Below, piece after piece: positions 15,534-30,469 of a DNA stretch of 64,000 bases. Made by a program: the position numbers and the translations under genes. Origin of the DNA: Streptomyces sp. Go-475 (lineage in GTDB: Bacteria > Actinomycetota > Actinomycetes > Streptomycetales > Streptomycetaceae); contig NZ_CP026121.1 in assembly GCF_003330845.1 (NCBI RefSeq), positions 8,165,501 through 8,229,500 on the forward strand, written 5' to 3'. A model generated the notes under the pieces. The model worked only from the letters and a program-made list of their open reading frames with translations. It did no database searches and was not told the DNA's origin. Every line of letters starts with the position of its first letter. The stretch's first letter is position 1.

Positions 15534-16820
15534 TCAGGCGAGCGTGACCTCCACCGGCAGTTTCTTGATGCCGTTGACGAAGTTGGAGCGCACGCGCGGC
15601 ACGTCACCGGCCAGCCGGATGTCCGCCAGGCGCGGGATCAGTTCCTCGAACATGATGCGGATCTCGGTGCGGGCGAGGAGGTTGCCCAGGCACAGGTGGG
15701 GGCTGCCCTTGCCGAAGGTGACGTGGTCGTTGTCGCGGCGGGTGACGTCGAAGTCGTAGGGGTTGCCGAAGACCTCCTCGTCGCGGTTGCCGGAGGCGAA
15801 CCACATCACCACCTTGTCGCCCTCCTTCACCTGCTTGCCGCCCAGTTCGACGTCGCGGGTGGCGGTGCGGCGGAAGTGGTAGACGGGGGAGGCCCAGCGC
15901 AGGAACTCCTCGACGGCGACCGGGATCAGGGAGGGGTCCTCCTGGAGGCGGGCGAGCTGCTCGGGGTGCTGGATGAGGGCCAGCATGGAGTGGGAGATGG
16001 TGTGCCGGGTGGTCTCGTTGCCGGCGACGACCAGGAGCAGGAAGTAGTTGTCGAAGTCCTGCGGGGAGAGCGGGACCCCGTCCCGGGGGACGGTGTTCAC
16101 CAGGCGCGAGATCAGGTCCGTGCCGTCGCCGCCGCGCCGCTGCCGTGCCAGTTCCCTGCCGTACTCGAACACCTCCAGCGAGGCGGGGGAGCGGAACGGC
16201 AGGTCGCGGTACCGCTCGCTCTCCTCGCTGTGCAGCAGGACGTCCGCGTAGTCGGGGTCGGTGTGCCCGATGATGCGGTTGCCCCAGTCGATGAGCTTCT
16301 GGTTGTCCTCCGGCGGCACGTCCAGCAGCCGGGCGAGGACGTTGATGGGGAAGTCCGCCGAGACGTCCGCGACGAAGTCGAAGCGGCCCTTGGCGAGGGC
16401 GGCGTCGAGGGTCCTCGCGGTCAGGCCGCGCAGGAAGTCCGTGTAGCCGTTGATCACGTTCGCGCCGAACTGCCGCTGGATGACGCTGCGCAGCGCCCGG
16501 TGCCGGACCCCGTCCAGTTCGAGGATCGAGGCGCGTTTCTTGATCTGGTCGTCGTCGACCTCCTCCAGGTTGACGAACCTCGTCGACGTGAAGGTCTCCG
16601 GGTCGCGGTCCACCCGGACGATGTCCTGGTGGCGGGTCACCGCCCAGAAGCCGGAGTTGGGCGCCTCCTCGGGCTGCCAGTGCACCGGGTCCTCGTGGCG
16701 CAGCGTGTGGAACATCCGCCAGGGGGTGACCCCGTCGGTGAAGCGGTCCAGGTCGGCGAGGTCCACGTCGGCCAGGGGCAGCGGCTCGCGCACCGCGTCG
16801 GGCAGGGTCTCGGTCGTCAT
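15534..16820 (-). CDS. Cytochrome P450 (linked to glutamine-synthetase-like gene and ferredoxin)
   Basis: This 428-residue soluble P450 has the I-helix VVAGNETTRH (about 265-274), the heme loop FGKGSPHLCLGN with Cys about 377, and the ExxR-type Glu in VAVEEFLRW region. It is a bacterial class I enzyme that needs a ferredoxin and reductase; both are encoded 1.7 kb away across the divergent promoter. It starts 29 bp after the glutamine-synthetase-like stop with GAGGAG upstream of the ATG. P450/GS-like/ferredoxin trios are known from mycobacterial morpholine and piperidine degradation (mor, pip), so oxidation next to an amine nitrogen is a reasonable guess; an aromatic substrate is also possible given the Hpa-like enzymes nearby. 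Confidence 0.92.
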   Translation of the reverse strand: MTTETLPDAVREPLPLADVDLADLDRFTDGVTPWRMFHTLRHEDPVHWQPEEAPNSGFWAVTRHQDIVRVDRDPETFTSTRFVNLEEVDDDQIKKRASILELDGVRHRALRSVIQRQFGANVINGYTDFLRGLTARTLDAALAKGRFDFVADVSADFPINVLARLLDVPPEDNQKLIDWGNRIIGHTDPDYADVLLHSEESERYRDLPFRSPASLEVFEYGRELARQRRGGDGTDLISRLVNTVPRDGVPLSPQDFDNYFLLLVVAGNETTRHTISHSMLALIQHPEQLARLQEDPSLIPVAVEEFLRWASPVYHFRRTATRDVELGGKQVKEGDKVVMWFASGNRDEEVFGNPYDFDVTRRDNDHVTFGKGSPHLCLGNLLARTEIRIMFEELIPRLADIRLAGDVPRVRSNFVNGIKKLPVEVTLA

Positions 16821-16849
16821 CGGCGTGCTCCTCGGCGTCACAGGGGGCG

Positions 16850-18199
16850 TCACAGGTGGTGGGCGTACTCGGTGAACTCCCAGTCCGTCACATGCCGGTG
16901 GAAGCGTTCGACCTCGTCGCGCTTGTAGGAGAGGAAGGACGTGGTGAAGCCCTTGCCGAGCAGGTCGGTCAGGGCGGTGTCCGCCTCCAGCGCGTCCAGC
17001 GCGGCGGACAGGGTCTGCGGCAGGACGGCCGAGCGGGCGGTGTCGTAGCCGTAGCCCTCCAGCGGGGCGGGCGGCTCCTCGCCGGCCAGGACACCCAGCA
17101 GCGCGGCGGTGATCGTCCCGGCGATCGCCAGGTACGGGTTGGCGCTCGCGTCGCCGAGGCGCAGTTCGAGCCGGGCGCCGGATCCCCGCTCGGGCGGGAT
17201 GCGCACCATGGCGCTGCGGTTGTCCAGGCCCCAGTCGATCAGCCAGGGCGCGAGGGTGTCGGGGCCGAAGCGTTTGTACGAGTTGACCGTGGGGTTGAGC
17301 AGGGCGGCCAGGGCGGGCGCGTGCGCCAGGACGCCGGCGACGGCGTGCCGGGCGGTGGCGGACAGGCCGTACGCACCGGACGGGTCGTCGAAGGTGTTGC
17401 GGCCCTCCTCGTCGTCGCAGGACAGGTGGAGGTGGAAGCCGGAGCCGCCCGCGTCGTTGAAGGGCTTGGCCATGAAGGTGGCCAGCCGGCCCTCCTTCCG
17501 CGCCAGTTCCTTGATCGCGGCCTTGAAGCGGAAGGACCGGTCGGCGGCCGACACGGCGTCCGAGTGCGCCAGGTTGATCTCGATCTGGCCGCCGTCGAAC
17601 TCGTGGTTGCCGCTGATCGCCCCGACCTTCAGATCGCGCACGTGCCGCAGGGTGCGCAGCAGGTGGTTGTCCGGGTCGGCGCGCAGGCCGGCGGTGTAGA
17701 CGACCCCGGGGTCGGGTGCGTACCGGCGCCAGCCTCCGGCCGGGTCCGGGTCGCACAGGAAGTACTCCAGCTCGGGCCCCACCACCGGCCGCAGCCCGTG
17801 CTCGGCGCACCGGGCGAGGACGGACCGCAGCAGGTCGCGGGGCGACTCGGGCGCGGGGGCGCCGGTCGCCGGGTCGACGACCTCGCCCAGACAGGCCGCC
17901 ACTCCCGGCTCCCAGGGCAGCGGCACCAGCGTGTCGAGGTCCGGCCGGACGCAGATGTCCGGCAGGCCCGCGTCGAGCCCGCCGCTGACCGGGACCACGT
18001 CGCCCTGCGGGCTGGTGTGGTAGACGGCCCGGCAGAACGCCAGCCCGTGCTCGCACGCGCGGGGCAACTCGTCCAGCAGCACGTCACGCGCCCGGTCGGT
18101 GCCGATCAGGTCGGGATAGGTCACCCGGACCACGTCGATGCCGTCGGCGGCGAGCCGGTCCATGTGGCGGCGGACTTCTTCAAGGTCGTGAGCGCTCAC
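16850..18199 (-). CDS. Glutamine-synthetase-like gamma-glutamyl amide ligase
   Basis: This 449-residue protein has the GS fold. The beta-grasp N-domain reads VVRVTYPDLIGTDRAR. The catalytic domain carries GPELEYFL, GNHEFDGGQIEINLAHSD (metal Glu residues), KPFNDAGGSGFHLHLS (catalytic His) and RLELRLGDASANPYLA. It resembles PuuA/GlnA3/IpuC-type enzymes that join glutamate to an amine rather than to ammonia. PuuC- and PuuD-like genes controlled by the same operator support that reading. The GTG start has GAGGAG about seven bases upstream. Control should come from the operator at 18311-18324. Confidence 0.88.
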   Translation of the reverse strand: MSAHDLEEVRRHMDRLAADGIDVVRVTYPDLIGTDRARDVLLDELPRACEHGLAFCRAVYHTSPQGDVVPVSGGLDAGLPDICVRPDLDTLVPLPWEPGVAACLGEVVDPATGAPAPESPRDLLRSVLARCAEHGLRPVVGPELEYFLCDPDPAGGWRRYAPDPGVVYTAGLRADPDNHLLRTLRHVRDLKVGAISGNHEFDGGQIEINLAHSDAVSAADRSFRFKAAIKELARKEGRLATFMAKPFNDAGGSGFHLHLSCDDEEGRNTFDDPSGAYGLSATARHAVAGVLAHAPALAALLNPTVNSYKRFGPDTLAPWLIDWGLDNRSAMVRIPPERGSGARLELRLGDASANPYLAIAGTITAALLGVLAGEEPPAPLEGYGYDTARSAVLPQTLSAALDALEADTALTDLLGKGFTTSFLSYKRDEVERFHRHVTDWEFTEYAHHL

Positions 18200-18310
18200 C
18201 GTTGTCTCCTCGGGCGGACGTCGGGACACCTCCGGGACACGGGGGCCGGGGAGGCGGGTGGCGTGGGAGCGAGCGGCCGGGCGCGGCGGAGCCAGGACCG
18301 CCCGGAGCTT

Positions 18311-18351
18311 GTTTGATGCCAAACGGTAGGGGTGGGTGAAGGGTGCCGCAA
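18311..18351 (-). promoter_or_regulatory. Promoter and operator for the GS-like/P450 operon
   Basis: On the minus strand a TTGCGG -35 (18346-18351) and TACCGT -10 (18323-18328) are separated by exactly 17 bases. The operator GTTTG-N4-CAAAC (GTTTGATGCCAAAC, 18311-18324) overlaps the -10 and transcription start region, a position that would block polymerase. Confidence 0.7.
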
Positions 18352-18370
18352 GAGGGCGGGGGCAAGAATT

Positions 18371-18384
18371 TATCCATCCGGATA
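18371..18384. promoter_or_regulatory. Inverted repeat TATCC-N4-GGATA in the divergent promoter
   Basis: TATCCATCCGGATA lies between the two divergent promoters, five bases upstream of the ferredoxin -35. It differs from the GTTTG operators and may bind a second regulator. A GGATAG half-match also occurs near the permease promoter (24813-24818). Confidence 0.4.
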
Positions 18385-18388
18385 GCTA

Positions 18389-18431
18389 TTGACCAGGCCC
18401 CTGCCCCTGCCTACCTTGTTTGGAGCCAAAC
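18389..18431 (+). promoter_or_regulatory. Promoter and operator for the ferredoxin operon
   Basis: TTGACC (18389-18394) and TACCTT (18412-18417) are spaced by 17 bases. GTTTGGAGCCAAAC (18418-18431) starts immediately after the -10, giving the same layout as the divergent promoter. The rest of the 338-bp gap holds only a GC-rich leader and AGGAGG before the ferredoxin ATG. Confidence 0.72.
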
Positions 18432-18537
18432 GAGTTCGGGGCGCGTCCACCGCACCCCGTTGGCCGGGGCCCGGCCCCTTCCGGCCGGGCCCCTTCTTCC
18501 CTTCCCCTCGACGCCCTCACATTCAGGAGGACCGGCC

Positions 18538-18726
18538 ATGAAGGTCGTCGTCGACATGAACAGGTGCCAGGACCACGGCCAGTGCGTCTTCGCCGCCCCC
18601 GACGTCTTCCGCCTGGACGACGACGGCCGCCTGGCCTACGTCCCCGACCCCGACGACGCCCTGCGCGACGAGGTCGAGGAGGCCGCGGACGTCTGCCCGC
18701 TCCAGGCCATCCGGATCGAGGACTGA
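18538..18726 (+). CDS. 3Fe-4S ferredoxin, P450 electron donor
   Basis: This 62-residue ferredoxin has three cluster cysteines: Cys10 (NRCQDHGQC), Cys16 and the Cys of VCPLQAI near residue 55. The second cysteine of a 4Fe-4S motif is replaced by His (CxDHGxC), as in the SoyB/CYP-associated 3Fe-4S class. AGGAGG lies upstream of the ATG and the reductase gene follows after one base, so it most likely carries electrons from that reductase to the P450. Confidence 0.92.
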   Translation: MKVVVDMNRCQDHGQCVFAAPDVFRLDDDGRLAYVPDPDDALRDEVEEAADVCPLQAIRIED

Positions 18727-18727
18727 C

Positions 18728-19924
18728 ATGAGCGGGCGCATCGTCGTCGCCGGCGCCTCCCTCGGCGGACTGCGCGCCGCCGAGCAGCTGCGCGCCGCGG
18801 GCTGGACCGGCGGCATCACGGTGGTCGGCGACGAGCCGCACCCGCCGTACAACCGGCCCCCGCTGTCCAAGGAGGTCCTCGCGGGCAAGGCGTCCTTCGC
18901 CTCGCTCGCCTTCACGCCGAAGCCGTCCGCGGCCGACGTGGAGTGGCGGCTGGGCACCAGGGCCGTGCGGGCCCGGCTCGCCGAGCGGACCGTCGTACTC
19001 GACGACGGCTCGGTGCTGTCGTACGACGGGCTGGTCGTCGCCACCGGGATGCGGCCCCGGCGGCTGCGCTGCCCCGGGCCGGTCGCCGGCCGGCACACCG
19101 TCCGCACGATCGACGACGCCCGGGGGCTGCGGGCCGAGCTGACCCGGCCGGGCGTGCGGGTCGTCGTGGTCGGCGCCGGGTTCATCGGCTGCGAGGTCGC
19201 CGCGACCGCGGTCGGGCTCGGTGCGGCCGAGGTGACCGTCGTCGATCCGCTGCCGTTGCCCATGGTCGGGCCGCTCGGGGAGCTGCTCGCGCGCGTGCTG
19301 CTGCACCGGCACCGGGAACGCGGGGTCCGCTTCGCGCTCGGCTCGGGGGTCGCCGGGTTCGAGGGCGACGACCGGGTCACCGGTGTCGTGCTGAGCGACG
19401 GGTCCGTGCTCGCCGCCGACGTGGTGGTGGAATCCGTCGGTTCGGTCGCCAACACCGAGTGGCTCGACGGCAACGGACTCGACCTGGGCGACGGCGTGCT
19501 CACCGACGAGCACCTGAGGGCCGGCGGCCGGCCCGAGGTCGTCGCGGTGGGTGACGTCGCCCGTTTCCCCAACGCCCGCTACGACGGCGTGCCGCGGCGG
19601 GTCGAGCACTGGTCCGTGCCGACGGACTCGGCCAAGCACGCGGCGAAGGTGCTGGTGGAGGGCGGTGCCGGCCTGGCGCCCTTCGCGCCGCTGCCCACCT
19701 TCTGGAGCGACCAGCACGACTTCCGGTTGCAGTCCTTCGGCGCGCCGGCGCTGGGGCTCGGCGATGTCCGGGTCCTCGACGGCGACCCCTCCGGGGACGT
19801 GCTGGCCGGTTACCACCGCGACGGACTGCTGGTCGGTGTCGTCGCGCTCGGCGGGCCTGCCGCGGCCCGCGCCGCCGCCCGGTACCGCGCCGATCTGCTG
19901 AAGCAGCCCGCCCTCACCTCGTAA
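18728..19924 (+). CDS. FAD-dependent NAD(P)H:ferredoxin reductase
   Basis: This 398-residue flavoprotein has an N-terminal FAD Rossmann motif (IVVAGASLGGLRAAEQLR), NRPPLSKE, LVVATGMRP, a second NAD(P) motif (VVVVGAGFIGCEVAA, about 147-161) and a VAVGDVARF FAD motif near 275. This is the layout of putidaredoxin/rhodocoxin reductases. It lies between the ferredoxin and the decarboxylase-fold gene in one operon and completes a three-component P450 system. Confidence 0.92.
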   Translation: MSGRIVVAGASLGGLRAAEQLRAAGWTGGITVVGDEPHPPYNRPPLSKEVLAGKASFASLAFTPKPSAADVEWRLGTRAVRARLAERTVVLDDGSVLSYDGLVVATGMRPRRLRCPGPVAGRHTVRTIDDARGLRAELTRPGVRVVVVGAGFIGCEVAATAVGLGAAEVTVVDPLPLPMVGPLGELLARVLLHRHRERGVRFALGSGVAGFEGDDRVTGVVLSDGSVLAADVVVESVGSVANTEWLDGNGLDLGDGVLTDEHLRAGGRPEVVAVGDVARFPNARYDGVPRRVEHWSVPTDSAKHAAKVLVEGGAGLAPFAPLPTFWSDQHDFRLQSFGAPALGLGDVRVLDGDPSGDVLAGYHRDGLLVGVVALGGPAAARAAARYRADLLKQPALTS

Positions 19925-19935
19925 GGAGCCCTTCC

Positions 19936-20748
19936 GTGACCGGTCTTCGTGGTTACTTCCATCCCAAGACGGCGACGGGCGCGTCGTCGCTGATCCCCTC
20001 TCCGCCGTGGCGGTACTCCGGCGACCTGTTGACGGTCGAGTACCGGACCGATCCGGCGCGGGTGCGTGAACTGCTCCCCGAGCCACTGGAGTTGGCCGAC
20101 GAGGATCCGGGCGCGGTCGCCCTGATCTGGGCGGACTGGCAGTCCTGCTCGGCCTCCGGGGAGGAGCTGCTCGATCCCGTGCGGGCGCAGTACAAGGAGG
20201 CGTTCGCGGTCGTGCGGTGCCGGTACGGGGGGCGGACGTACTCGCGGTGCGTCCACATCTGGGTCGACAAGGACTTCGCGATCGCGCGGGGGCTGCACCA
20301 GGGGTATCCGAAGAAGCTGGGCTCCATCCATCAGACGCGGCCGCATCCGTACGGGCCCGCCCCGCGGATCGAGGCGGGGGCGCGGTTCGGGGCGACGCTG
20401 GCCGCCGCGGACCGGCGCATCGCGCAGGCCGTGGTGACGCTGCGGGAGCCGTCGGAGAGCGGTGGGTTCGTCAACGCCCATCCCATGGCGCATCACCGGT
20501 GGCTGCCGTCGATCGAGAAGGGGAAGGGGCTGGCGCTCGACGAGCTGATCGAGAGTGGTGCGGCTTCCTTCGAAGGTGGTCAACCGTGGGTCGGGGATGC
20601 CGAGTTGGAGCTGTTCGAGGCGCCTACGGAGGAACTGGCCCGGCTGGAGGTGCGGGAGCCGATCGCCGCGTACTACCGGCAGGTCGGGGTCGTCTGGGAC
20701 GGGGGGCGGCTGCTGGAAGTCGGTACGTCGGGAGCGTCTGCCGCGTAG
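19936..20748 (+). CDS. Acetoacetate decarboxylase-fold protein
   Basis: This 270-residue protein matches the acetoacetate decarboxylase (ADC) superfamily. The Schiff-base lysine pair is present as GYPKKLGSI (Lys126-Lys127), matching the Lys115/Lys116 of clostridial ADC. Some family members catalyse aldol or dehydration steps instead of decarboxylation. Its place between the P450 electron-transfer genes and Hpa-like ring-cleavage enzymes suggests it acts on an oxo-acid intermediate; the exact reaction is unknown. The start is GTG with AAGGAG upstream. Confidence 0.85.
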   Translation: MTGLRGYFHPKTATGASSLIPSPPWRYSGDLLTVEYRTDPARVRELLPEPLELADEDPGAVALIWADWQSCSASGEELLDPVRAQYKEAFAVVRCRYGGRTYSRCVHIWVDKDFAIARGLHQGYPKKLGSIHQTRPHPYGPAPRIEAGARFGATLAAADRRIAQAVVTLREPSESGGFVNAHPMAHHRWLPSIEKGKGLALDELIESGAASFEGGQPWVGDAELELFEAPTEELARLEVREPIAAYYRQVGVVWDGGRLLEVGTSGASAA

Positions 20749-20780
20749 CGCCAGTGGGTCGAGTGCGGGTGCGTGGTGGC

Positions 20781-20807
20781 TTGTCGCGCAGTTCCCCGCG
20801 CCCCTGA
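20781..20807. repeat. Dispersed intergenic repeat, copy 1
   Basis: The complement reads TCAGGGGCGCGGGGAACTGC then GCGACAA. A near-identical element lies at 49982-50005 in this window. Such a short GC hairpin-like repeat is widespread between genes of many Streptomyces genomes. It sits in the 98-bp gap between the decarboxylase-fold gene and the dehydrogenase gene. Confidence 0.7.
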
Positions 20808-20846
20808 GTACGTGCAATAGCCCCTCGTTGGAATGGAACTCTTCTC

Positions 20847-22310
20847 ATGCCTGAAAGAATCACCGTCGCCGGTGTTTCCGTCGACACCCGGCACTGGATC
20901 GGCGGGCGGCGGGTCGCCTCCGACGGCACCTTCACCGACCACTCTCCGATCGACGGCAGCGTGCTGGGCGAGATCGCCCGGGGCGGGCCCGCCGAGGCCG
21001 GAGCCGCGGTCGTCGCCGCCCGGGACGCCTTTCCCGCCTGGGCCGCCACCTCGCGCGGCGAGCGCGCCCGCATCCTGCACGCCATCGCCGACGGTGTCGA
21101 GAAGCGGCTCGAAGAGCTGGCGATCGTCGAGACCACCGACAACGGCGCGCTGCTGCGGTCGCACCGGCGGGGCGTCATGCCCCGCGTCGCCCACAACTTC
21201 CGGTTCTTCGCCGACTGGCTGCTGACGCTGGAGCACGAGGACTTCGACACCCGGGGGCACACCAACCACGTCAGCTGGGATCCGGCCGGGCCCTGCGTGC
21301 TGATCACGCCGTGGAACGCGCCGCTGATGCTGGCCACCTGGAAGGTCGCCCCCGCCCTCGCCGCCGGGAACACCGTCGTCCTCAAGCCCGCCGAATGGTC
21401 ACCGCTGACCGCCTCCCTGCTGGCCGACATCGCGGCGGAGGCCGGACTGCCGGCCGGTGTCCTCAACGTCGTCCAGGGGTACGGCTCCGAGATCGGCGAC
21501 GCCCTCACCGCGCACCCCGACGTGCGGCGCATCAGCTTCACCGGCTCGGTGCCGACCGCGCGGCGGATCGCCGCCTCGGCCGCCGCGAACCTCACGCCCC
21601 TCAGTCTCGAACTCGGCGGCAAGTCGCCGCTGTTGGTCTTCGCCGACGCCGATCTCGACCTGGCCGTCGACCTCGCCGTGGAGCAGTACGACAACGCCGG
21701 GCAGGTGTGCCTCGCGGGCACCCGGCTGCTCGTCGAGGAGCCGGTCGCCGAGGAGTTCACCCGGCGGTTCGTCGAGAAGGCCACGGCCCTGCGGCAGGGC
21801 GACCCGCGGGACGAGAGCACCGACATCGGGCCCACCATCCACCCCCGCCAGCTGGAGAAGATCGACGGTTTCGTGCGCCGGGCCGTCGCCGCCGGGGCAC
21901 GGGCGGTCATCGGCGGGCACCGCGAGGACGGCCAGTACTACGCGCCGACCCTGCTCACCGGCGTCGCCCAGGACTCCGAGATCGTGCAGGAGGAGGTCTT
22001 CGGGCCCGTCCTGACCCTGCAGACCTTCACCGGCGAGGACGAAGCCGTCCGGCTCGCCAACGACACCCGCTTCGGGCTGGCCGCCACCGTCGCCACCGGC
22101 GACCGCGAGCGCGCGGAGCGGGTCTCCGCCCAGCTCGTCGCGGGGACCGTCTGGGTCAACTGCTTCTTCGTGCGGGACCTCCGGGCGCCCTTCGGCGGCT
22201 CCCGGCAGTCCGGCGTCGGCCGCGAGGGCGGCACCTGGAGCTTCGACTTCTACTGCGACCTGAAGAACACCGTCACCGCCCCGAACGGATGGAGCCAGGA
22301 CCATGGGTGA
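20847..22310 (+). CDS. Aldehyde dehydrogenase, HpaE-like (5-carboxymethyl-2-hydroxymuconate semialdehyde type)
   Basis: This 487-residue ALDH has Asn157 (PWN), Glu255 (LELGGKSP) and nucleophile Cys288 (GQVCLAG). Beyond the general fold it shares HpaE features: RVAHNFRFFAD (about 113-123) and the C-terminal VRDLRAPFGGSRQSG-GREGG stretch. HpaE oxidises the semialdehyde made by homoprotocatechuate ring cleavage. It overlaps the dioxygenase gene by eight bases and is followed by an HpaG-like gene, which strengthens the assignment. Confidence 0.88.
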   Translation: MPERITVAGVSVDTRHWIGGRRVASDGTFTDHSPIDGSVLGEIARGGPAEAGAAVVAARDAFPAWAATSRGERARILHAIADGVEKRLEELAIVETTDNGALLRSHRRGVMPRVAHNFRFFADWLLTLEHEDFDTRGHTNHVSWDPAGPCVLITPWNAPLMLATWKVAPALAAGNTVVLKPAEWSPLTASLLADIAAEAGLPAGVLNVVQGYGSEIGDALTAHPDVRRISFTGSVPTARRIAASAAANLTPLSLELGGKSPLLVFADADLDLAVDLAVEQYDNAGQVCLAGTRLLVEEPVAEEFTRRFVEKATALRQGDPRDESTDIGPTIHPRQLEKIDGFVRRAVAAGARAVIGGHREDGQYYAPTLLTGVAQDSEIVQEEVFGPVLTLQTFTGEDEAVRLANDTRFGLAATVATGDRERAERVSAQLVAGTVWVNCFFVRDLRAPFGGSRQSGVGREGGTWSFDFYCDLKNTVTAPNGWSQDHG

Positions 22311-23226
22311 GATCGTCGGGGCCGGGCTGCTCGCCCACGTCCCCACCATCGTGCTGCCCGAGGCCGACCGCCTGGAGCTCAACGAGGGCAAGGAGATCAC
22401 CCTCGTCACCGGGCTCCGGGAACTGCGCCGGGACGTCTTCGAGCGGGACGACTACGACACCGTCGTCGTCCTCGACTCCCACTGGGCCACCACCGTCGAG
22501 TTCGTCGTCACCGCCCAGCAGCGCAGAGCCGGACTCTTCACCTCCGAGGAGCTGCCGCGCGGCATGTGCCGGATGCCGTACGACTACCCGGGCGACCCCG
22601 AACTCGCCCACAACATCGCCTCGTTCGCCGACAAGCACGGCACCTGGATCACCCCGATCGACGACGCGTACCTGCCGGTCTACTACGCCACCATCAACCT
22701 CTGGAAGTACCTGGGCGAGGGCCTGCCCGACAAGCGGTGGGTCACCATCGGGGTCTGCCAGACCGGTGACCTGGAGGACCACCTGCGGCTCGGGCGGGCG
22801 CTCGCCGACGGCATCGCCGCCACCCCGGGGCGACGGGTGCTGCTCATCGCCTCCGGCGCCCTCTCGCACACCTTCTGGCCGCTGCGCGAACTGCGGGACC
22901 ACGAGGCCAGCGACCCGGTGCACATCCGCACGCCCGAGGCGCGGGAAGCCGACCTGGAGCGCATCGCCTGGTTCAAGGAGGGGCGCCACGACAAGGTCCT
23001 CGACACCATGGACGAGTTCTGGAAGTTCAGGCCCGAGGCGAAGTTCTTCCACTACCTGATGATGGCCGGCGCCCTCGGTGAGCGGCACTGCACCGCCCGG
23101 GCCCGCCAGTACGGCGCGTACGAGAACTCCGTCGGCACCGGCCAGGCCCACCTCTGGTTCGACCGGCCCGCCGACGGCTGGACCGGCAGCCCCACCACCG
23201 CACCCCAGGAGTCCGCCCATGCCTGA
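22303..23226 (+). CDS. Extradiol ring-cleavage dioxygenase, HpaD-like (LigB superfamily)
   Basis: This 307-residue protein matches class III homoprotocatechuate 2,3-dioxygenase: GLLAHVPTI (metal His about 11), VVVLDSHW (His about 61), FTSEELPRG, MPYDYPGDPELA, IASGALSHTFW (catalytic His) and NSVGTGQ near the C-terminus. It should open a catechol ring using Fe2+ and O2; 3,4-dihydroxyphenylacetate or a close analogue is the best guess. It overlaps both neighbours by eight bases, so the three ring-cleavage enzymes are probably translationally coupled. Confidence 0.9.
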   Translation: MGEIVGAGLLAHVPTIVLPEADRLELNEGKEITLVTGLRELRRDVFERDDYDTVVVLDSHWATTVEFVVTAQQRRAGLFTSEELPRGMCRMPYDYPGDPELAHNIASFADKHGTWITPIDDAYLPVYYATINLWKYLGEGLPDKRWVTIGVCQTGDLEDHLRLGRALADGIAATPGRRVLLIASGALSHTFWPLRELRDHEASDPVHIRTPEAREADLERIAWFKEGRHDKVLDTMDEFWKFRPEAKFFHYLMMAGALGERHCTARARQYGAYENSVGTGQAHLWFDRPADGWTGSPTTAPQESAHA

Positions 23227-24064
23227 GTACCGCCGCATCCTCCTCGACGGCGCCGCCGTCCAGGTCACCGTCGACGGTGACGAACTCGTCGCCGGGGACG
23301 GCCGCCGCGTCAAGACCGACGACGCGCGGCACCTGCCGCCGGTCGTGCCGTCCAAGGTCATCGCCGTGCACCTCAACCACCGCAGCCGGGTCGACGAGTT
23401 CCGGATCGGGCTGCCCGACACGCCCACCTACTTCCACAAGCCGACCTCGGCCCTCAACGCCCACCAGGGCGCGATCGTCCGCCCCGAGGGCTGCAAGTGG
23501 CTCAACTACGAGGGCGAGGTCGCCATCGTCATCGGGAGGACCGCGCGGAACATCGCGCAGGGTGAGGCGGGGGAGTACATCGCCGGGTACACGATCGCCA
23601 ACGACTTCGGCCTGCACGACTTCCGCGACACCGACGCCGGGTCGATGCTCCGGGTGAAGGGCTCCGACACCCTCTGCCCGCTCGGCCCCGGCCTCGTCAC
23701 CGACTGGGACTTCCACGGCAAGCGGCTGCGGACCCACGTCAACGGCGAGGTGGTGCAGGACGGGTCGACGGACGAGATGACCTGGGACATGCACTACCTC
23801 GTCGCCGACATCGCCCGCACCATCACCCTGTACCCGGGCGACGTCCTGCTGTCCGGCACGCCCGCCAACTCGCGGCCCGTCCAGCCGGGCGACGTGGTGG
23901 AGGTGGAGGTCGAGGGACTGGGGCGGCTCACCAACCACATCGTGACCGGCCCGACCGCCGTCCGCACCGACGTCGGCGCCCAGCCCACCGAGTCGGAGGA
24001 AGTGCTGTCGACCGCGCTCGGCGGCGACTGGGAGTTCCGTGGCATCCGGCCGCCGCGCCGCTGA
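23219..24064 (+). CDS. Fumarylacetoacetate hydrolase-family protein, HpaG-like
   Basis: This 281-residue FAH-fold enzyme has NYEGEVAIVIGRTARN (metal Glu), GYTIANDFGLHDF, LRVKGSDTLCPLGPGLV and LSGTPANSRPVQPGDVVEVEVEGLGRL, closely following HpaG (2-hydroxyhepta-2,4-diene-1,7-dioate isomerase / OPET decarboxylase). It would act after the HpaD- and HpaE-like steps. HpaF, HpaH and HpaI equivalents are not in the window, so the route beyond this point needs genes elsewhere or a variant pathway. Confidence 0.87.
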   Translation: MPEYRRILLDGAAVQVTVDGDELVAGDGRRVKTDDARHLPPVVPSKVIAVHLNHRSRVDEFRIGLPDTPTYFHKPTSALNAHQGAIVRPEGCKWLNYEGEVAIVIGRTARNIAQGEAGEYIAGYTIANDFGLHDFRDTDAGSMLRVKGSDTLCPLGPGLVTDWDFHGKRLRTHVNGEVVQDGSTDEMTWDMHYLVADIARTITLYPGDVLLSGTPANSRPVQPGDVVEVEVEGLGRLTNHIVTGPTAVRTDVGAQPTESEEVLSTALGGDWEFRGIRPPRR

Positions 24065-24128
24065 GGGCCACCGGGTGGCTGAAGGCCGCCGCGCCGCTGA
24101 ACGGGACGGCTTGGGTAGGGTCGCGGGC

Positions 24129-24752
24129 ATGACCGAGCCCGCCCGCCGCCCCCGCAAGCGCGTGCACTACGGCACGGGCCGCGAGGCCCTGCTGGAGGCC
24201 GCCGTGCGCGTCGTGGCCCGGGGCGGGCTGCGCAAGCTCACCTACCGGGCGGTCGCGGAGGAGGCCGGGGTCACCCACGGCCTGGTCGTGCACCATTTCG
24301 GCTCCCGCGACGCCCTGATCGAGGAGGCCGTCGCCCACGCCATCCGCTCCTCCCTCAGCAGCAGCGCCCTCGAACCGGGCACGGGCGAGGTCGCCGACTT
24401 CTCGGCGGGCCTGACGGACATGGTCGAATCCGGTCCTGACCTCCAGGCGTTCCAGTACGAACTGCTGCTGGAGTCCCGCCGCCGCCCCGAGCTCCTCGCC
24501 CACCTGCGGTCGCTGTACGACGAGTACTTCGACGCCACCCGGCGCGAACTCACCCAGATGCTGCCCGGCCCGGTGGACGAGGGGCTGTCCCGGATGGTCT
24601 TCGCGACGCTGGAGGGGCTCGTCCTGCACCAGCTGGTCTTCGGGGAGCGCGAGGTCATCGACCAGGCGCTGGACGAACTGCGCTCGGTGCTGCGGCTGCT
24701 CGCGGAGCGACAAGGCGGCGAGGGGTGCGGCGACGGCTGCGGCGAGGGCTGA
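24129..24752 (+). CDS. TetR-family regulator, likely repressor of the amine/aromatic regulon
   Basis: This 207-residue protein has an N-terminal TetR helix-turn-helix (LLEAAVRVVARGGLRKLTYR, AVAEEAGVTHGLVVHHFGSRDALI, about 17-60) and a ligand-binding C-domain. It follows the HpaG-like gene by 64 bp and precedes the permease promoter. As the only regulator inside the cluster it is the natural candidate to bind the GTTTG-N4-CAAAC operators. The ATG at 24129 is favoured; the frame is open upstream but that part overlaps low-complexity sequence. Confidence 0.88.
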   Translation: MTEPARRPRKRVHYGTGREALLEAAVRVVARGGLRKLTYRAVAEEAGVTHGLVVHHFGSRDALIEEAVAHAIRSSLSSSALEPGTGEVADFSAGLTDMVESGPDLQAFQYELLLESRRRPELLAHLRSLYDEYFDATRRELTQMLPGPVDEGLSRMVFATLEGLVLHQLVFGEREVIDQALDELRSVLRLLAERQGGEGCGDGCGEG

Positions 24753-24803
24753 GCCCGCCACCCCCTCCGCCGCGCGCGTCCGCGATTCCTCGTCCCTCAC
24801 CCC

Positions 24804-24856
24804 TTGCCAAACGGATAGTTCCGCCCCACCATGAGGCAACTCGTTTGGCCTGAAAC
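24804..24856 (+). promoter_or_regulatory. Promoter and operator for the APC permease
   Basis: TTGCCA (24804-24809), a 17-base spacer and CACCAT (24827-24832) form a plausible promoter. GTTTGGCCTGAAAC (24843-24856) is the regulon operator with one arm mismatch, placed downstream of the -10 and 31 bases before the GTG start. Confidence 0.65.
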
Positions 24857-24887
24857 GATCCTTCCTCCCCTCTGGCAGGTGATCCGA

Positions 24888-26339
24888 GTGGACAGTCAGA
24901 CGGTCTCCCGGCACGCGGCGAAACCGGACGCGCCCACCGCAGGCACGCTCAAGCCCGACGCCCTCGGCGTCCTGGGCATCCTCTTCTTCGTCCTGTCCGC
25001 CCAGGCCCCGCTCACCGGCATCGCCGGCGCGGCCCCCATCGCCGTGGCCCTCGGCAACGGCCCCGGCGTGCCCGCCGCCTATCTGGTGGCGGGACTGGTG
25101 ATCCTGCTGTTCTCGGTGGGTTTCGTCGCCATGGGCCGCCACGTCGTGGACGCGGGCGCCTTCTACACCTACATCGGCAAGGGCCTCGGCCGGACCACCG
25201 GCACCGGCAGCGCGGGCCTCGCGCTCTTCGCGTACTGCACCATCCAGGCCGCCATGTACGGCCTCTACGGCTCCATCGTCAGCGGCCTGGTCGCGAGCCA
25301 CACCGGCCTGGACCTGCCGTGGTGGCTCTGGACGCTGGCGACCATGGCCGTGGTGCAGGCGCTCGGCGCGGCCGGCATCGAGATGGGCGCCAAGGTGCTG
25401 GCCGCCTTCGTCCTCGCGGAGTTCAGCATCCTGTCGGTGTTCGCCCTCGTCACCCTGGTCAAGGGCGGCGGGCCCGAGGGGCTCGGCCTCGCCGAGAGCT
25501 TCTCCCCGGCCGCGGCCCTGGACGGGGCGCCGGGCGTGGCCGTGATGTTCGCCGTGGCGTCCATGTTCGGCTTCGAGGCGACCGCCATCTACGGCGAGGA
25601 GGCCCGCGAGCCCCGCAGGACCGTGCCGCGCGCCACCTACCTCGCGGTCGTGGTGGTCACCGGCTTCTTCGCCCTGGTCTCCTGGACGCTCATCTCCTCC
25701 TACGGCGCCTCCAAGGCCACCGCCGCCGCGGGCAAGGCCCTGGCGGGCGGAGACGGCGCCGGCTTCGTCTTCGCGCCCATCGCGGCGGACTTCGGCGGCT
25801 GGGTGGGTGACGTCCTGCCGGTCCTGCTCGCCACGTCCCTCTTCGCCGGCATCCTCACCTTCCACAACTCCGCCAACCGCTACCTGTTCTCGCTCGGCCG
25901 CGACCGGCTGCTGCCGCGCCGGCTGTGCGGGCTCAACCGCCGCCACGCGCCCTGGGTGGCCGGATGCGCGCAGACCGCCCTGGCCGTCCTCCTGGTGGCG
26001 CCCTTCGCGCTGGCGGGCAAGGACCCGGTGCTGACGCTGTTCTCCTGGTTCAGCGGCGTCGCCGTCCTGGCGATGATGCTGCTGTACCTGCTGACGTCGG
26101 TGTCCGTCGTGGTCTTCTTCCGCCGCGAGCGCCTCGACCCCCGGCCCTGGAACACCCTGATCGCACCCCTGCTGGGCGCGCTCGGCATCGCCGGGGCGAT
26201 CTGGCTCATCCTGGCCAACTTCACCACCCTCATCGGCGGCGCACGCACCACCGCCCTGTGGCTCACGCTGTCCGTCCCGGTGGTCATGGCGCTGGGCCTG
26301 ATCGCCGCGCGGATGCGGGGCAGGGCCGCCGGCGGCTGA
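24888..26339 (+). CDS. APC-superfamily amino acid/amine permease
   Basis: This 483-residue protein has about twelve transmembrane segments. It begins with the APC helix-1 pattern GVLGILFFVLSAQAPLTGIA and has GFEATAIYGEEAREPRRTVPRA in the helix-6/7 region. The GTG at 24888 is preferred because AGGTGA lies five bases upstream and the operator then sits in the leader. In the Puu system an APC permease (PuuP) imports putrescine; here it probably imports the amine that the GS-like ligase glutamylates. Confidence 0.88.
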   Translation: MDSQTVSRHAAKPDAPTAGTLKPDALGVLGILFFVLSAQAPLTGIAGAAPIAVALGNGPGVPAAYLVAGLVILLFSVGFVAMGRHVVDAGAFYTYIGKGLGRTTGTGSAGLALFAYCTIQAAMYGLYGSIVSGLVASHTGLDLPWWLWTLATMAVVQALGAAGIEMGAKVLAAFVLAEFSILSVFALVTLVKGGGPEGLGLAESFSPAAALDGAPGVAVMFAVASMFGFEATAIYGEEAREPRRTVPRATYLAVVVVTGFFALVSWTLISSYGASKATAAAGKALAGGDGAGFVFAPIAADFGGWVGDVLPVLLATSLFAGILTFHNSANRYLFSLGRDRLLPRRLCGLNRRHAPWVAGCAQTALAVLLVAPFALAGKDPVLTLFSWFSGVAVLAMMLLYLLTSVSVVVFFRRERLDPRPWNTLIAPLLGALGIAGAIWLILANFTTLIGGARTTALWLTLSVPVVMALGLIAARMRGRAAGG

Positions 26340-26374
26340 CCACGGGCACCGTCCTCCACGGACAGCGCCGCCCA

Positions 26375-26392
26375 TATCGTTTGACATCAAAG
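26375..26392 (+). promoter_or_regulatory. Operator upstream of the PuuC-like/PuuD-like operon
   Basis: GTTTGACATCAAAG (26379-26392) is a fourth copy of the regulon operator with one arm mismatch, overlapping a TATCGT -10-like hexamer (26375-26380). It ends just before the AGGAGG that precedes the ATG at 26404. No convincing -35 is seen. Confidence 0.6.
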
Positions 26393-26403
26393 GAGGATCC
26401 TCC

Positions 26404-27894
26404 ATGCCGGCCGTCACCCACGACGAGTGGCTCCGCCGCGCCAAGGCGTTCCAGCTCTCCGGCGCCCATCACATCGACGGCGCCGAGGAGCCCGGGGGAG
26501 GGGCCGCGTTCCCGGTCGTGTCCCCGCGTGACGGCCGGGTCCTCGCCGAGGTCGCCGACGGCGGCGCCGCCGAGGTGGACGCGGCCGTCGCCGCCGCCCG
26601 GCGGGCCTTCGACAGCGGGCCCTGGCCGCGCCTGGCACCCGCCGAGCGCGGCCGGGCCCTGCTCCGCCTCGCCGACCTGCTCGAAGAGCGGCGCGAGGAA
26701 CTCGCCCTGACCGTCACCCTGGAGATGGGCAAACCCGTCACGGACGCGTACGGCATCGAACTGCGCGCCCTCATCGGCACGTTCCGCTGGTACGGCCAAC
26801 TCGCGGACAAGCTCACCGACACCTCCCCGCACACCGCCCCGGACGCCCTCGCCCTGGTCACCCGGGAACCGGCCGGGGTGGTCGGCGCGGTGGTGCCCTG
26901 GAACTTCCCGCTGACCCTGGCCGGCTGGAAGGTCGCCCCGGCCCTCGCGGCGGGCTGCACGGTCGTGCTGAAACCCTCCGAGAACTCCCCGCTCTCCGCC
27001 CTCCTCCTCGGCCGCCTCGCCACCGAGGCCGGCCTCCCGCCCGGCGTGCTCAACGTCGTCACCGGCGACGGCCCCACGGCGGGGCGGGCCCTCGGCCTCC
27101 ACCCGGACGTCGACGTCCTGGCGTTCACCGGCTCCACCGCCGTCGGCCGCCACTTCCTGCGCTACGCCGCCGACTCCAACCTCAAGCGCGTCTGGCTGGA
27201 ACTCGGCGGCAAGTCGCCCAACATCGTCCTGCCCGACGCCCCGGACCTCGACCGGGCCGCCGCCACCGCCGCCTGGGGCATCTTCTTCAACCAGGGTGAG
27301 ATGTGCACGGCCCCCTCCCGGCTGCTCGTGCACACCTCGATCGCCGAGCGGGTCACCGAGGCCGTGGTCCGGCGGGCCCGCGAGCTGCGGGTCGGCGACC
27401 CGCTCGACCCGGAGACGGAGATGGGCGCGCTGGTCGGCCCGGCCCACCTGGAGCGCGTGCGCGACCACATCCGGCACGGCCTCGACGAGGGCGCCCGCCT
27501 GCGCACCGGAGGCGAGCGCGTGCTCGCCGAGACGGGCGGGACGTACCTGGAGCCGACCGTCTTCGACCGCGTCGACCCCGGCTCCCGGCTGGCCCGGGAG
27601 GAGATCTTCGGGCCCGTGCTGTCCGTACTCGCCTTCGACGACCTCGACGAGGCGGTCCGCCTGGCCAACGCCACCGAGTACGGCCTCGCCGCCGGCCTGT
27701 GGACCTCCGACCTGTCCACCGCCCACCGGGTCTCCCGCAAGCTCAGGGCCGGGACGGTCTGGGTCAACTGCTACGAGGAGGGCGACCTGACCGTCCCCTT
27801 CGGCGGCATGAAGCAGTCGGGCAACGGCCGCGACAAGTCCGCCCACGCCCTGGAGAAGTACACCGAGCTCAAGACCACCTGGATCCAGCTGTGA
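26404..27894 (+). CDS. Aldehyde dehydrogenase, PuuC-like (gamma-glutamyl-aminoaldehyde type)
   Basis: This 496-residue ALDH has Asn167 (PWN), Glu266 (LELGG) and Cys301 (GEMCTAPSR). Its C-terminus, GDLTVPFGGMKQSGNGRDKS then HALEKYTELKTTWI, closely follows E. coli PuuC, which oxidises gamma-glutamyl-aminobutyraldehyde. The PuuD-like gene overlaps it by four bases. With the GS-like ligase under the same operator, it probably oxidises a gamma-glutamylated aldehyde. Confidence 0.9.
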   Translation: MPAVTHDEWLRRAKAFQLSGAHHIDGAEEPGGGAAFPVVSPRDGRVLAEVADGGAAEVDAAVAAARRAFDSGPWPRLAPAERGRALLRLADLLEERREELALTVTLEMGKPVTDAYGIELRALIGTFRWYGQLADKLTDTSPHTAPDALALVTREPAGVVGAVVPWNFPLTLAGWKVAPALAAGCTVVLKPSENSPLSALLLGRLATEAGLPPGVLNVVTGDGPTAGRALGLHPDVDVLAFTGSTAVGRHFLRYAADSNLKRVWLELGGKSPNIVLPDAPDLDRAAATAAWGIFFNQGEMCTAPSRLLVHTSIAERVTEAVVRRARELRVGDPLDPETEMGALVGPAHLERVRDHIRHGLDEGARLRTGGERVLAETGGTYLEPTVFDRVDPGSRLAREEIFGPVLSVLAFDDLDEAVRLANATEYGLAAGLWTSDLSTAHRVSRKLRAGTVWVNCYEEGDLTVPFGGMKQSGNGRDKSAHALEKYTELKTTWIQL

Positions 27895-28583
27895 GGCCCC
27901 TCATCGCGATCCCCGCCCGGTTCTCGGCCCGGACCTCCGCGCTCCGCTACGCCGCCGAGGTCAACGCCCGTGCCCTGATCGAGGCCGTGTGGCGGGCCGG
28001 CGGCGAGCCGGTGAGCATCCACCCGGCGGACACCGGCACCGCCGAACGGCTCACCCGCTTCGACGGCGTCCTCCTCCCCGGCGGCGGGGACCTCGCGCCC
28101 GCCCGCTACGGCGCCACCGACACCCACGCCACCGTCTACGACGTCGACCCCCTCCAGGACGCCTTCGACCTGGACGTCGCCCGGCACGCGCTGGAGTCGG
28201 GCCGGCCGCTGCTCGCGATCTGCCGCGGCCTCCAGGTCGTCAACGTCGCCCTCGGCGGCACCCTGGAACAGGACATGGGCGGCCCGGAACACGAGCACCG
28301 GCACGTCGTGCACCCCGTCACCCTGGAGCCCGGCTCGGTCCTCGCCCGCGCCACGGGCGCCGAGAAGGCCGACGCCTCCTGCTACCACCACCAGCGCGTC
28401 GACCGCCCGGGCGCGGACCTCCGCGTCACGGCCCGGGCGGCCGACGGAACCATCGAGGGCCTCGAACTCCCCGGCGCGGGCGGCTGGTTCACGGCCGTCC
28501 AGTGGCACCCCGAGGACACCGCCCACGAGGACCCGGCCCAGCAGGGCCTGTTCGACGCGCTCGTGCGGGCCGCGGCCCGGTGA
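27891..28583 (+). CDS. Class I glutamine amidotransferase-like gamma-glutamyl hydrolase, PuuD-like
   Basis: This 230-residue protein has the class I amidotransferase triad: Cys111 (LLAICRGLQVVNV), His206 and Glu208 (VQWHPED). It shows the PuuD-type features LLPGGGDLAPARYG, LGGTLEQD and SCYHHQRV. PuuD removes glutamate from gamma-glutamyl-GABA; here it would free an acid from its gamma-glutamyl carrier. The start GTG overlaps the dehydrogenase stop (GTGA). Confidence 0.9.
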   Translation: MRPLIAIPARFSARTSALRYAAEVNARALIEAVWRAGGEPVSIHPADTGTAERLTRFDGVLLPGGGDLAPARYGATDTHATVYDVDPLQDAFDLDVARHALESGRPLLAICRGLQVVNVALGGTLEQDMGGPEHEHRHVVHPVTLEPGSVLARATGAEKADASCYHHQRVDRPGADLRVTARAADGTIEGLELPGAGGWFTAVQWHPEDTAHEDPAQQGLFDALVRAAAR

Positions 28584-28597: not shown

Positions 28598-29218
28598 TCA
28601 GGCCCGGGGCCGTCGGCCGCTGCGCCGGGGGGCGGGCTCGGCGCCGCCCAGCAGGGCCTGCCGCCGCTCCTCGCCGTGCTCCTCCACCTGGAGCACCACG
28701 CTGCGCAGCCCCTCCGCGAGGCTGCGGCACTCCGCGTCGCTGAGCCCGGCGGTGACGAACGCCTCCTCCTCGTTGAACGCCGGGAACACCCGCCGCATGA
28801 ACTCCTCGCCCTCGTCGGTGAGGCTCAGCAGCACCAGCCGCCCGTCGCTCGGATGGTCCGCCCGCCGCAGCAGCCCCCGCGACTCCAGCGTGCGGGCCAC
28901 CCCCGTGAGCGTGCCCTTGGAGATCCCCGCCTCCTCCGCCACGTGCCGGGTCTCCGACTCGCCCCACACCCAGACCACCCACAGCACCACGAAGGCCGTC
29001 CAGGTCAGGTCGGAGCCGCGCAGCACGGAGTTCTCCAGGTGCTGCCGCACGGCGGACGCGGCCCGGTAGATGTTCGCCACCGCCGCCATCTGCTCCCGGC
29101 GGATCGGAATGCCCCCGAGCTTCGCCGCGGCGAGCTTCTCGGCTTCGGTGATCGATCGGTGGCCCGGCACGGGCGGCTCCTTCGGCTGGTCCTGCGGCGT
29201 CACGAGCGGGCGGCTCAT
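28598..29218 (-). CDS. MarR-family transcriptional regulator
   Basis: This 206-residue protein has a winged helix typical of MarR: LTWTAFVVLWVVWVWGESETR, HVAEEAGISKGTLTGVARTLESRGLL and the wing HPSDGRLVLLSLTDEG. The extended N-terminus and basic C-terminus (RRSGRRPRA) are unusual. ATG 29218 is preferred over an upstream TTG at 29245. It is divergent from the LLM oxidoreductase gene, with an inverted repeat in between, so it probably controls that gene and itself. Confidence 0.87.
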   Translation of the reverse strand: MSRPLVTPQDQPKEPPVPGHRSITEAEKLAAAKLGGIPIRREQMAAVANIYRAASAVRQHLENSVLRGSDLTWTAFVVLWVVWVWGESETRHVAEEAGISKGTLTGVARTLESRGLLRRADHPSDGRLVLLSLTDEGEEFMRRVFPAFNEEEAFVTAGLSDAECRSLAEGLRSVVLQVEEHGEERRQALLGGAEPAPRRSGRRPRA

Positions 29219-29233: not shown

Positions 29234-29256
29234 GTTCGGGCTCAAATTGTACGAAC
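29234..29256. promoter_or_regulatory. Possible MarR operator between divergent genes
   Basis: GTTCG (29234-29238) and CGAAC (29252-29256) form inverted arms separated by 13 AT-richer bases, in the short gap between the MarR and LLM oxidoreductase genes. The position is right for autoregulation; the motif is a guess. Confidence 0.4.
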
Positions 29257-29274: not shown

Positions 29275-30216
29275 ATGCCGATACAGCCCCGCATGCTCCT
29301 CGTCCTCAGCGAGAACTGGACCCTCACCGGTGGCCGGGCCGACCTGCCCGCCGCCGTCCGCTGGGCCCGCGAGGCCGAGGACGCCGGCTTCGACTCGGTC
29401 ATGGTCAGCGAGCACATCGTCCTCGGCCCCGACGCGTCCGCCGCCGGCGTCATGGGCAACCCCCGTGACTACGCCCTCCCGGGCAACCAGGACCCGGACA
29501 CCCCCTGGCCGAACTCCCTGCTGCTGCTCGCCGCCATCGCCTCCGTCACCTCCCGGCTCCGCCTGGCCGCCGCCGCCGTCCTCGCCCCGCTGCGCCACCC
29601 CCTGCTGCTCGCCCGCGAGCTCGGCACCCTCGACCTGATCAGCGAGGGGCGTCTCGTCGTACAGCCCACCGTCAGCTGGAGCAAGGACGAGTACGACGCC
29701 CTCGGCGTGCCCTTCGACCGGCGCGGGCGGCTCCTCGACGAGCACCTGGAGGTCTGGGCGAAGGCCTGGGGGCCCTCCCCGATCTCCCACGACGGACCCC
29801 ACTACCCCTTCCGGGACGTCCACTTCGAGCCCAAGGCCCACCGTCCGGACGGACCCCGGCTCTGGTTCGGCGGGCAGCGCCTGCACGGCCCCGTCCTGCG
29901 CCGCCTCGTGCGGTACGGCCACGGCTTCCACCCGCTCGGCCGCCCCACGCCCGCGGACCTCCAGGCCCTCGAGGAGGCGATGACGGCGGCCGGGCGGGAC
30001 ATCGGCGACCTGGAGATGATCGGCAGCACCCGCGCCGTCTTCCCCGACGACCGCTCACCGGCGGACCTGGGCGCGGCGCTCGCCGTGCTCCCCGAGCAGC
30101 TGGAGCAGGGCTTCACGACCTTCTGCGTCAAGCCGAACCAGTTCATCGACGACCCCGACGGCGTCGGGGCGTTCTGCCGCGACGTCATGAGGCGCGTCGC
30201 GGCGCTGACCTCCTGA
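29275..30216 (+). CDS. LLM-class (luciferase-like) oxidoreductase, probably F420-dependent
   Basis: This 313-residue protein has the bacterial luciferase-like TIM-barrel pattern: AREAEDAGFDSVMVSEHIVLG, TSRLRLAAAAVLAPLRHPLLLARELGTLD and SEGRLVVQPTVSWSKDEYDALGV followed by RGRLLDE. The LLM family uses F420 or FMN, and in actinomycetes this subgroup is mostly F420-dependent. The substrate is unknown. It may belong functionally to the preceding amine/aromatic cluster, but its operator differs, so this is not assumed. Confidence 0.87.
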   Translation: MPIQPRMLLVLSENWTLTGGRADLPAAVRWAREAEDAGFDSVMVSEHIVLGPDASAAGVMGNPRDYALPGNQDPDTPWPNSLLLLAAIASVTSRLRLAAAAVLAPLRHPLLLARELGTLDLISEGRLVVQPTVSWSKDEYDALGVPFDRRGRLLDEHLEVWAKAWGPSPISHDGPHYPFRDVHFEPKAHRPDGPRLWFGGQRLHGPVLRRLVRYGHGFHPLGRPTPADLQALEEAMTAAGRDIGDLEMIGSTRAVFPDDRSPADLGAALAVLPEQLEQGFTTFCVKPNQFIDDPDGVGAFCRDVMRRVAALTS

Positions 30217-30468: not shown

Positions 30469-30469
30469 T

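Follow-up and report, generated by a model that had tools for sequence, protein, structure and literature searches.

A putative single-operator regulon for the catabolism of 2-arylethylamines in Streptomyces sp. Go-475

The window analyzed here, a 64,000-nucleotide stretch of Streptomyces sp. Go-475 (C1:8165501-8229500 in a genome of one 8.57 Mb contig), carries twelve genes encoding a glutamine synthetase (GS)-like ligase, a cytochrome P450 system, ring-cleavage enzymes resembling those of the Hpa pathway and closing enzymes resembling those of the Puu pathway. Comparison with related loci indicates that these twelve genes very probably form a single regulon. Their function is suggested more tentatively: the reading we prefer, to which we give somewhat short of an even chance, is that they degrade 2-arylethylamines to pyruvate and gamma-aminobutyrate (GABA), with a glutamate cap kept on the amine throughout.

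All of the genes named in an earlier reading of the DNA alone (hereafter the original prediction) have been located by open reading frame and profile scans, in the order given there, each with its coordinates and domain matches. The P450 and GS-like genes, both on the minus strand, diverge from the ferredoxin, reductase, ADC-fold, HpaE-, HpaD- and HpaG-like genes on the plus strand, where neighbouring genes from ferredoxin to HpaG are separated by -8 to 98 bases; the TetR, APC permease, aldehyde dehydrogenase (ALDH) and glutamine amidotransferase (GATase) genes lie downstream of the HpaG-like gene, all on the plus strand. The extent originally assigned to the unit, 15534-28583, is right for the twelve genes, but its end at 28583 is not, in that the MarR and LLM genes also belong to it (to 30216). 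The features are as follows.

15534..16820, minus: cytochrome P450 (PF00067; nearest solved chains CYP125MRCA and CYP124)
16850..18199, minus: GS-like putative gamma-glutamyl amine ligase, with the ammonium-site Glu replaced by Leu
18311..18324: operator 1, exact, GTTTGATGCCAAAC (motif scan and conservation)
18418..18431: operator 2, exact, GTTTGGAGCCAAAC, 107 bp from operator 1 (motif scan and conservation)
18538..18726, plus: small ferredoxin, presumed P450 partner (three Cys, C-x2-H-x2-C ... CP by eye; probably 3Fe-4S)
18728..19924, plus: ferredoxin reductase (Pyr_redox_2 and Reductase_C)
19936..20748, plus: ADC-fold protein, proposed hydratase/retro-aldolase
20847..22310, plus: HpaE-like semialdehyde dehydrogenase
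22303..23226, plus: HpaD-like LigB-type extradiol dioxygenase
23219..24064, plus: HpaG-like single-domain FAH protein, proposed decarboxylase/isomerase
24129..24752, plus: TetR-family regulator (profile scans)
24843..24856: operator 3, one mismatch, before the APC permease gene
24888..26339, plus: APC-family amine/amino acid permease (profile scans)
26379..26392: operator 4, one mismatch, before the ALDH gene
26404..27894, plus: PuuC-like ALDH (best solved relative 4lih, a gamma-glutamyl-gamma-aminobutyraldehyde dehydrogenase)
27891..28583, plus: PuuD-like putative gamma-glutamyl hydrolase (GATase)
28598..29218, minus: MarR-family regulator, weakly HpaR-like (42 bits, cut-off 121), the likely operator reader
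29234..29247: operator 5, degenerate, GTTCGGGCTCAAAT, two mismatches, at the start of the MarR gene
29275..30216, plus: LLM-class F420-type oxidoreductase
30579..33296, plus: sugar-type ABC permease and Amidohydro_3 (YtcJ-like) genes

The gene set, its operators, their conservation and the exchange of modules between loci are all seen directly by comparison. A search of genome contigs yielded 266 stretches that encode an HpaD relative, from which the best 80 loci were kept, 79 of them from Streptomyces and one from Kitasatospora. All twelve core genes are present in 55 of the 65 loci with full flanks (at least 20.8 kb); among the ten incomplete ones, some lack two or more genes, and L062 lacks one. 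The nearest orthologous locus is that of Streptomyces olindensis, at 89-99% identity per protein. Within the genus, 91 of 392 sampled genomes contain the HpaD-like gene itself (7 of the 91 at only 57-59% identity); within the phylum, 28 of 296 do.

The two exact copies of the GTTTG-N4-CAAAC motif, at 18311 and 18418, both lie in the intergenic region between the GS and ferredoxin genes. Two sites with at most one mismatch are found in 68 of 72 such regions and one site in the remaining four, and the spacing of the pair is 105-109 bp in all 68 (107 in 37 of them). A site at the same threshold precedes the APC gene in 66 of 70 loci and the ALDH gene in only 30 of 70 (34 if two mismatches are allowed), while one with up to two mismatches is found near the MarR start in 41 of the 44 loci that have this gene. 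The original prediction spoke of the motif at four promoters; the sites are real, but they are better described as two in one divergent promoter, one each at APC and ALDH and a degenerate fifth at MarR. Taken by itself, the window shows no significant excess, its 8 matches at up to two mismatches being reached in 14 of 100 shuffles. Over the 8.57 Mb there are 3 exact sites, against none for a reversed-pattern control; allowing one mismatch raises the count to 11 places, against 15 for the control, and the cluster contains 4 of the 11. A one-mismatch site is thus uninformative singly, and it is the clustering and conservation that carry the weight. A stricter pattern matches just two sites in this genome, at the GS promoter and at the MarR start, both in the cluster, and that genome scan revealed no operator-bearing genes outside it. 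The sole exact operator-like site outside the cluster, at C1:3128116-3128129, is upstream of what appears by eye to be a helix-turn-helix gene, with no visible link.

Some genomes keep the two halves of the set apart. Seven were inspected for a GATase away from the main locus; the ALDH-GATase pair is distant from it in five, and in each of these the separate block carries an operator no more than one mismatch from the motif. The remaining two are G314, which gave no GATase match, and G312, where the pair sits within the main locus. L225 and L226 have the GATase-ALDH operon on one side and the HpaE-HpaD-HpaG operon on the other side of a shared divergent promoter with two exact operators. Since the unlinked blocks keep the operator and these two loci share a divergent promoter, independent regulation of the halves -- looked for by comparison -- was not found, and the earlier proposal of one operator and one regulon is borne out.

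The original prediction implied TetR as the regulator, but the linked MarR protein is likelier to read these sites, because genomes and loci without TetR retain the operators. Of 18 genomes examined, 17 have a MarR match (E <= 1e-30). A search for TetR gave no match in two of the five genomes with TetR-less loci (G311, with 150 of 164 candidates scored, and G313), and it is absent from all eight of the decarboxylase-variant loci described below; the operators are kept in both genomes and in all eight loci, with MarR seen in six of the latter. TetR as the sole operator reader is unsupported, given that operators persist where it was not found; dual control by MarR and TetR is an alternative.

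Support was also found for reading the GS-like gene as an amine ligase and not as a genuine GS. At the position of the ammonium-site Glu (presumably Glu327 in the usual numbering), all 75 aligned close relatives have Leu (one fragment was not aligned) and all 14 distant ones have Leu, Met, Ile or Phe; no match to the FDGSS loop of a true GS is seen, and the protein shows the loss of ammonium-site residues that characterizes the glutamyl organic amide synthetases (GoaS). The HpaD-like protein matches PF02900 (84.8 bits, cut-off 26.3), and His12, His60, His189 and Glu245, which we take to be its three metal ligands and its catalytic His, are kept in all 82 near and all 25 far relatives. The PuuD-like protein matches Peptidase_C26 (170 bits, cut-off 20.5). 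The nearest solved folds to the ADC-fold protein are MppR and the aldolase-dehydratase of S. bingchenggensis, both of the ADC superfamily; it shares with them the fold and a lysine pair, which we assume to have a Schiff-base role, but its identity to them in structural alignments is only 31-34%. No report of an MppR-type ADC protein in an aromatic-amine regulon was found in the literature searched.

We infer the substrate, the enzyme roles, the order of steps, repression and its regulator as follows. The APC permease would import the amine, and the GS-like ligase would convert it, in the case of tyramine, to gamma-glutamyl-tyramine, whose ring the P450, ferredoxin and reductase would hydroxylate to give gamma-glutamyl-dopamine. 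The HpaD-like dioxygenase would then cleave the ring at 2,3, the HpaE-like enzyme oxidize the semialdehyde and the HpaG-like protein decarboxylate the product; hydration by the ADC-fold protein, followed by a retro-aldol step, would release pyruvate and leave gamma-glutamyl-4-aminobutyraldehyde, from which the PuuC-like ALDH and PuuD-like hydrolase would produce GABA and glutamate, the latter being recycled. The genes would be repressed at the GTTTG-N4-CAAAC sites, the linked MarR being the most likely repressor. gamma-Glutamyl-4-aminobutyraldehyde is the classical PuuC substrate. Retention of the gamma-glutamyl group to the end is proposed because the carbon accounting then yields pyruvate and precisely this compound, and the Hpa and Puu halves are placed in one pathway because the ring-cleavage product would feed the PuuC and PuuD steps; the reasoning on chain length and step order builds on the known Hpa and Puu chemistry. 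The entry module would be exchangeable: phenolic amines such as tyramine would enter through a P450 system, amino acids through a tyrosine/DOPA (3,4-dihydroxyphenylalanine)-type decarboxylase that supplies dopamine derived from DOPA.

The exchange is suggested by a second Streptomyces variant. Among the 80 loci the P450 is present in 71; L074, one of those without it, is the only locus with a decarboxylase of a further kind. The gene stands between HpaG and ADC and resembles tyrosine decarboxylase, the NCBIfam model that it matches best (127.7 bits against a cut-off of 905). This type is matched in 58 of 392 genus genomes; among its 30 best loci HpaG or HpaD flanks it in 11, and an isolated copy elsewhere is preceded, 48 bp upstream, by an exact operator. 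Where the decarboxylase is at least 76% identical, a cut picked after viewing the list, HpaD (also at least 76%) is found in 35 of 41 genomes versus 49 of the 351 others (Fisher 8e-21); dropping the 11 genomes known to carry the decarboxylase in the operon gives 24 of 30 versus 49 of 351 (4e-14), and taking all decarboxylase matches gives 36 of 58 versus 55 of 334 (3e-12), all three values ignoring relatedness. Eight decarboxylase-variant loci were read in longer stretches, and none of the eight contains a P450, ferredoxin, reductase, TetR, APC or HpaB gene; the lack of P450, ferredoxin and reductase is what one would expect of a substrate that is a catechol from the start. The GS aligns over residues 1-446 without a stop in five of the eight, with the ammonium-site Glu changed to Thr or Ala. 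The residue at this lost site -- Leu in the P450 variant (L005-L084), Thr or Ala in the five decarboxylase-variant GS (L222-L231) -- may line the amine pocket. A truncated GS remnant adjoins MarR and the operators at L074:7135-7656, in the second copy of Streptomyces sp. A012304.

Decarboxylases recur farther afield, in 25 distant loci from other genomes of the phylum (several cut by contig ends; the queries were drawn from L114, L115 and L116, which match themselves). A PF00282-type, pyridoxal phosphate-dependent (PLP) decarboxylase is found in 14 of them, 12 belonging to one group and 2 to another about 31% identical to it; the L074 type is about 29-34% identical to these distant-locus enzymes, and the neighbour decarboxylases match PF00282. 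The same loci include a GS-like gene in 14, MarR in 11 and an LLM homologue in 8, and five have a class III aminotransferase with GABA-transaminase models among its best hits, below cut-offs; no assignment was obtained for the ALDH next to it. One distant decarboxylase has as its best solved relatives 4obu, which we take to be a tryptophan decarboxylase, and the DOPA decarboxylase 7xin, though glutamate and other decarboxylases match too. About 1.8 kb beyond MarR, L045 has a canonical aromatic-amino-acid-type decarboxylase, scoring 376 bits to Tyr/DOPA decarboxylase. The recurrence of such aromatic-amino-acid-type neighbours argues for the arylethylamine-type substrate that had been suggested from the window.

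A number of observations weigh against the capped-arylethylamine route. The Hpa equivalog models are missed by all three relatives (HpaD 124.7 bits against a cut-off of 316, HpaE 534 against 638, HpaG 209.5 against 276), as are PuuC, although it is the best NCBIfam hit of the ALDH (570 against 850), and PuuD by the GATase (67 against 266). The P450 could instead attack the side chain, and the model finds no use for the LLM, YtcJ and ABC genes. In the decarboxylase variant, GS was not found in three of the eight loci, and the ALDH-GATase pair adjoins the ring-cleavage genes in only three; the window locus itself is without a decarboxylase, and the genome's own copy, at C1:343945, has no operator with at most one mismatch nearby. 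G306 has no MarR match, yet keeps the operators and TetR. The distant loci do not show the final steps that we propose, the genes for them being mostly missing nearby: within the stretches examined, ADC-like genes occur in 8 of the 25, a PuuC-like or related ALDH in 4 and a PuuD-like GATase in 1, and no ADC, ALDH or GATase is seen in any of the 12 loci that make up the main decarboxylase group. Finally, L122 combines HpaE, HpaG, ADC-like and PuuC-like ALDH genes with an HpaB-like (363 bits, cut-off 480) and an HpaD-like gene, and no GS; these parts can therefore serve an arylacetate route.

It was such a route that the original prediction favoured. Spelled out, the glutamylated amine would be oxidized at its side chain, by the P450 or the PuuC-like ALDH, freed as 3,4-dihydroxyphenylacetate before ring opening and cleaved in Hpa fashion to succinate semialdehyde and pyruvate. 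The resemblance of the ring-cleavage genes to the Hpa family and the gene mix of L122 speak for it, but we consider it rather unlikely. No PuuB-type FAD oxidase, amine oxidase or polyamine oxidase was found by Pfam among the twelve proteins (the rest of the genome was not searched), and HpaB-1 (TIGR02309) has no match in the whole genome (the HpaB-2 model was not run); a P450 that makes the aldehyde leaves the catechol without a source, and vice versa; the ALDH-GATase pair stays by the ring-cleavage genes in the P450-less loci L073, L074, L222, L225 and L226; and the capped product fits PuuC and PuuD. In a tree of HpaD, the two HpaB-linked rows fall on long branches and are poorly placed. There is a smaller chance that the capped-amine logic holds for a different arylalkylamine with another ring or chain (benzylamines, for instance, which would lead to beta-alanine) or for several amines. 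Chain length is not fixed by the sequence, and a second P450 inside 10 of the 80 loci and an extra GATase inside 11 (one of each identified) would suit this, while the neighbouring decarboxylases would give 2-arylethylamines if they are of the Tyr, DOPA or Trp type. More doubtful again is the idea of two unrelated modules, one for an amine or polyamine and one for an aromatic acid, sharing one regulator: the halves are separate transcription units, each with its own operator, and are unlinked in five genomes, but the oxidase that polyamines would call for is lacking from the twelve proteins (a polyamine pathway was rejected on this ground), the operator follows both unlinked halves, and L225 and L226 serve both from one divergent promoter.

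Degradation of an arylamine of the aniline or naphthylamine type, with the P450 replacing a Rieske dioxygenase, is very improbable. No Rieske oxygenase is present among the twelve proteins; 8wwu, which we take to be NpaA1, is a weaker relative of the GS-like protein (145.6 bits) than many GS chains; and anilines are not products of the neighbouring amino acid decarboxylases. The aniline and 1-naphthylamine systems presumably include a GATase as well. The combination of a GS-like ligase, GATase and oxygenase does resemble these systems. In them, AtdA and NpaA1 (PMC11335346) offer a parallel in that a GS-like ligase with an altered ammonium site caps an aromatic amine; unlike them, the present set has a P450 rather than a Rieske dioxygenase, HpaD-type cleavage and an additional ALDH/GATase end. 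The degradation of cyclic amines such as piperidine or morpholine, the other possibility raised in the original prediction, now seems scarcely credible. All that speaks for it is the company of P450, ferredoxin, reductase and GS, as in the PipA/MorA clusters of the pip and mor systems described in PMC9477822 (P450 families and sequences were not compared); the ring-cleavage and Puu-like genes set the present locus apart from these, the extradiol dioxygenase and the genes that follow it would be without a role there, and the P450 system is missing from all eight decarboxylase-variant loci.

Like the Puu pathway, the preferred capped-amine route would carry its amine as a gamma-glutamyl derivative and use a PuuC-type ALDH, a PuuD-type hydrolase and an APC permease, but it has no PuuB-type oxidase in its twelve genes, and ring cleavage would sit between ligase and ALDH. 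The GS-like protein reaches 255 bits against the gamma-glutamylputrescine synthetase model NF045547, far under its cut-off of 650. With homoprotocatechuate meta-cleavage (Hpa/Hpc) the set shares the HpaE-, HpaD- and HpaG-like steps and a weakly HpaR-like MarR; it differs in the added GS, P450 and Puu-like genes and in the use proposed for the ADC-fold protein as hydratase-aldolase, no HpaF isomerase, HpaH hydratase or HpaI aldolase having been assigned among the twelve proteins (here too the rest of the genome was not searched). At L122:2031-11464, the ADC protein may replace the hydratase/aldolase in an ordinary Hpa route too. S. coelicolor GlnA2, GlnA3 and GlnA4 are likewise Streptomyces GS-like ligases, acting on polyamines or ethanolamine, but their abstracts mention no P450, extradiol dioxygenase or operator of this kind. 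The statement that no described pathway has the full gene set still stands, none having been found in the literature searched, in which subscription journals were thinly covered.

If the capped-amine reading is correct, gamma-glutamyl amine catabolism and meta ring cleavage would be joined in one pathway with an unusual product, GABA from tyramine or catecholamines, and roles would be offered for a P450, an ADC-fold protein and a GS-like ligase otherwise annotated by fold alone. With the HpaD-like marker as widespread in the genus as noted above (91/392), such a pathway could shape the use of tyramine, dopamine and DOPA by soil bacteria. Dopamine and other catechols have been reported to elicit siderophores and antibiotics in Streptomyces (PMC9814775).

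Extra genes appear within the cluster at some loci. Eleven related genes (for example L043:12550-13842), all but one of which sit between TetR and APC within the cluster, include one identified as a second P450, and 11 of the 80 loci have an extra gene between APC and ALDH (for example L035:15484-16269), one of which was identified as GATase-type; relatives of the latter are near the set in L131, L190, L222 and L225. Beyond the LLM gene, 30232-33296 encodes a LuxR-type C-terminal fragment, a lone sugar-type ABC permease and a YtcJ-like amidohydrolase whose solved relatives are only distant, uncharacterized or generic; no second ABC gene adjoins the permease/YtcJ pair here. A one-mismatch operator is found 2.8-3.0 kb upstream in four of the seven loci with the ABC permease, and also in L190, while L060, a miss, had room for one. 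At the other side of the cluster, the gene at 625-1767 encodes a protein that by eye looks like a glycine amidinotransferase.

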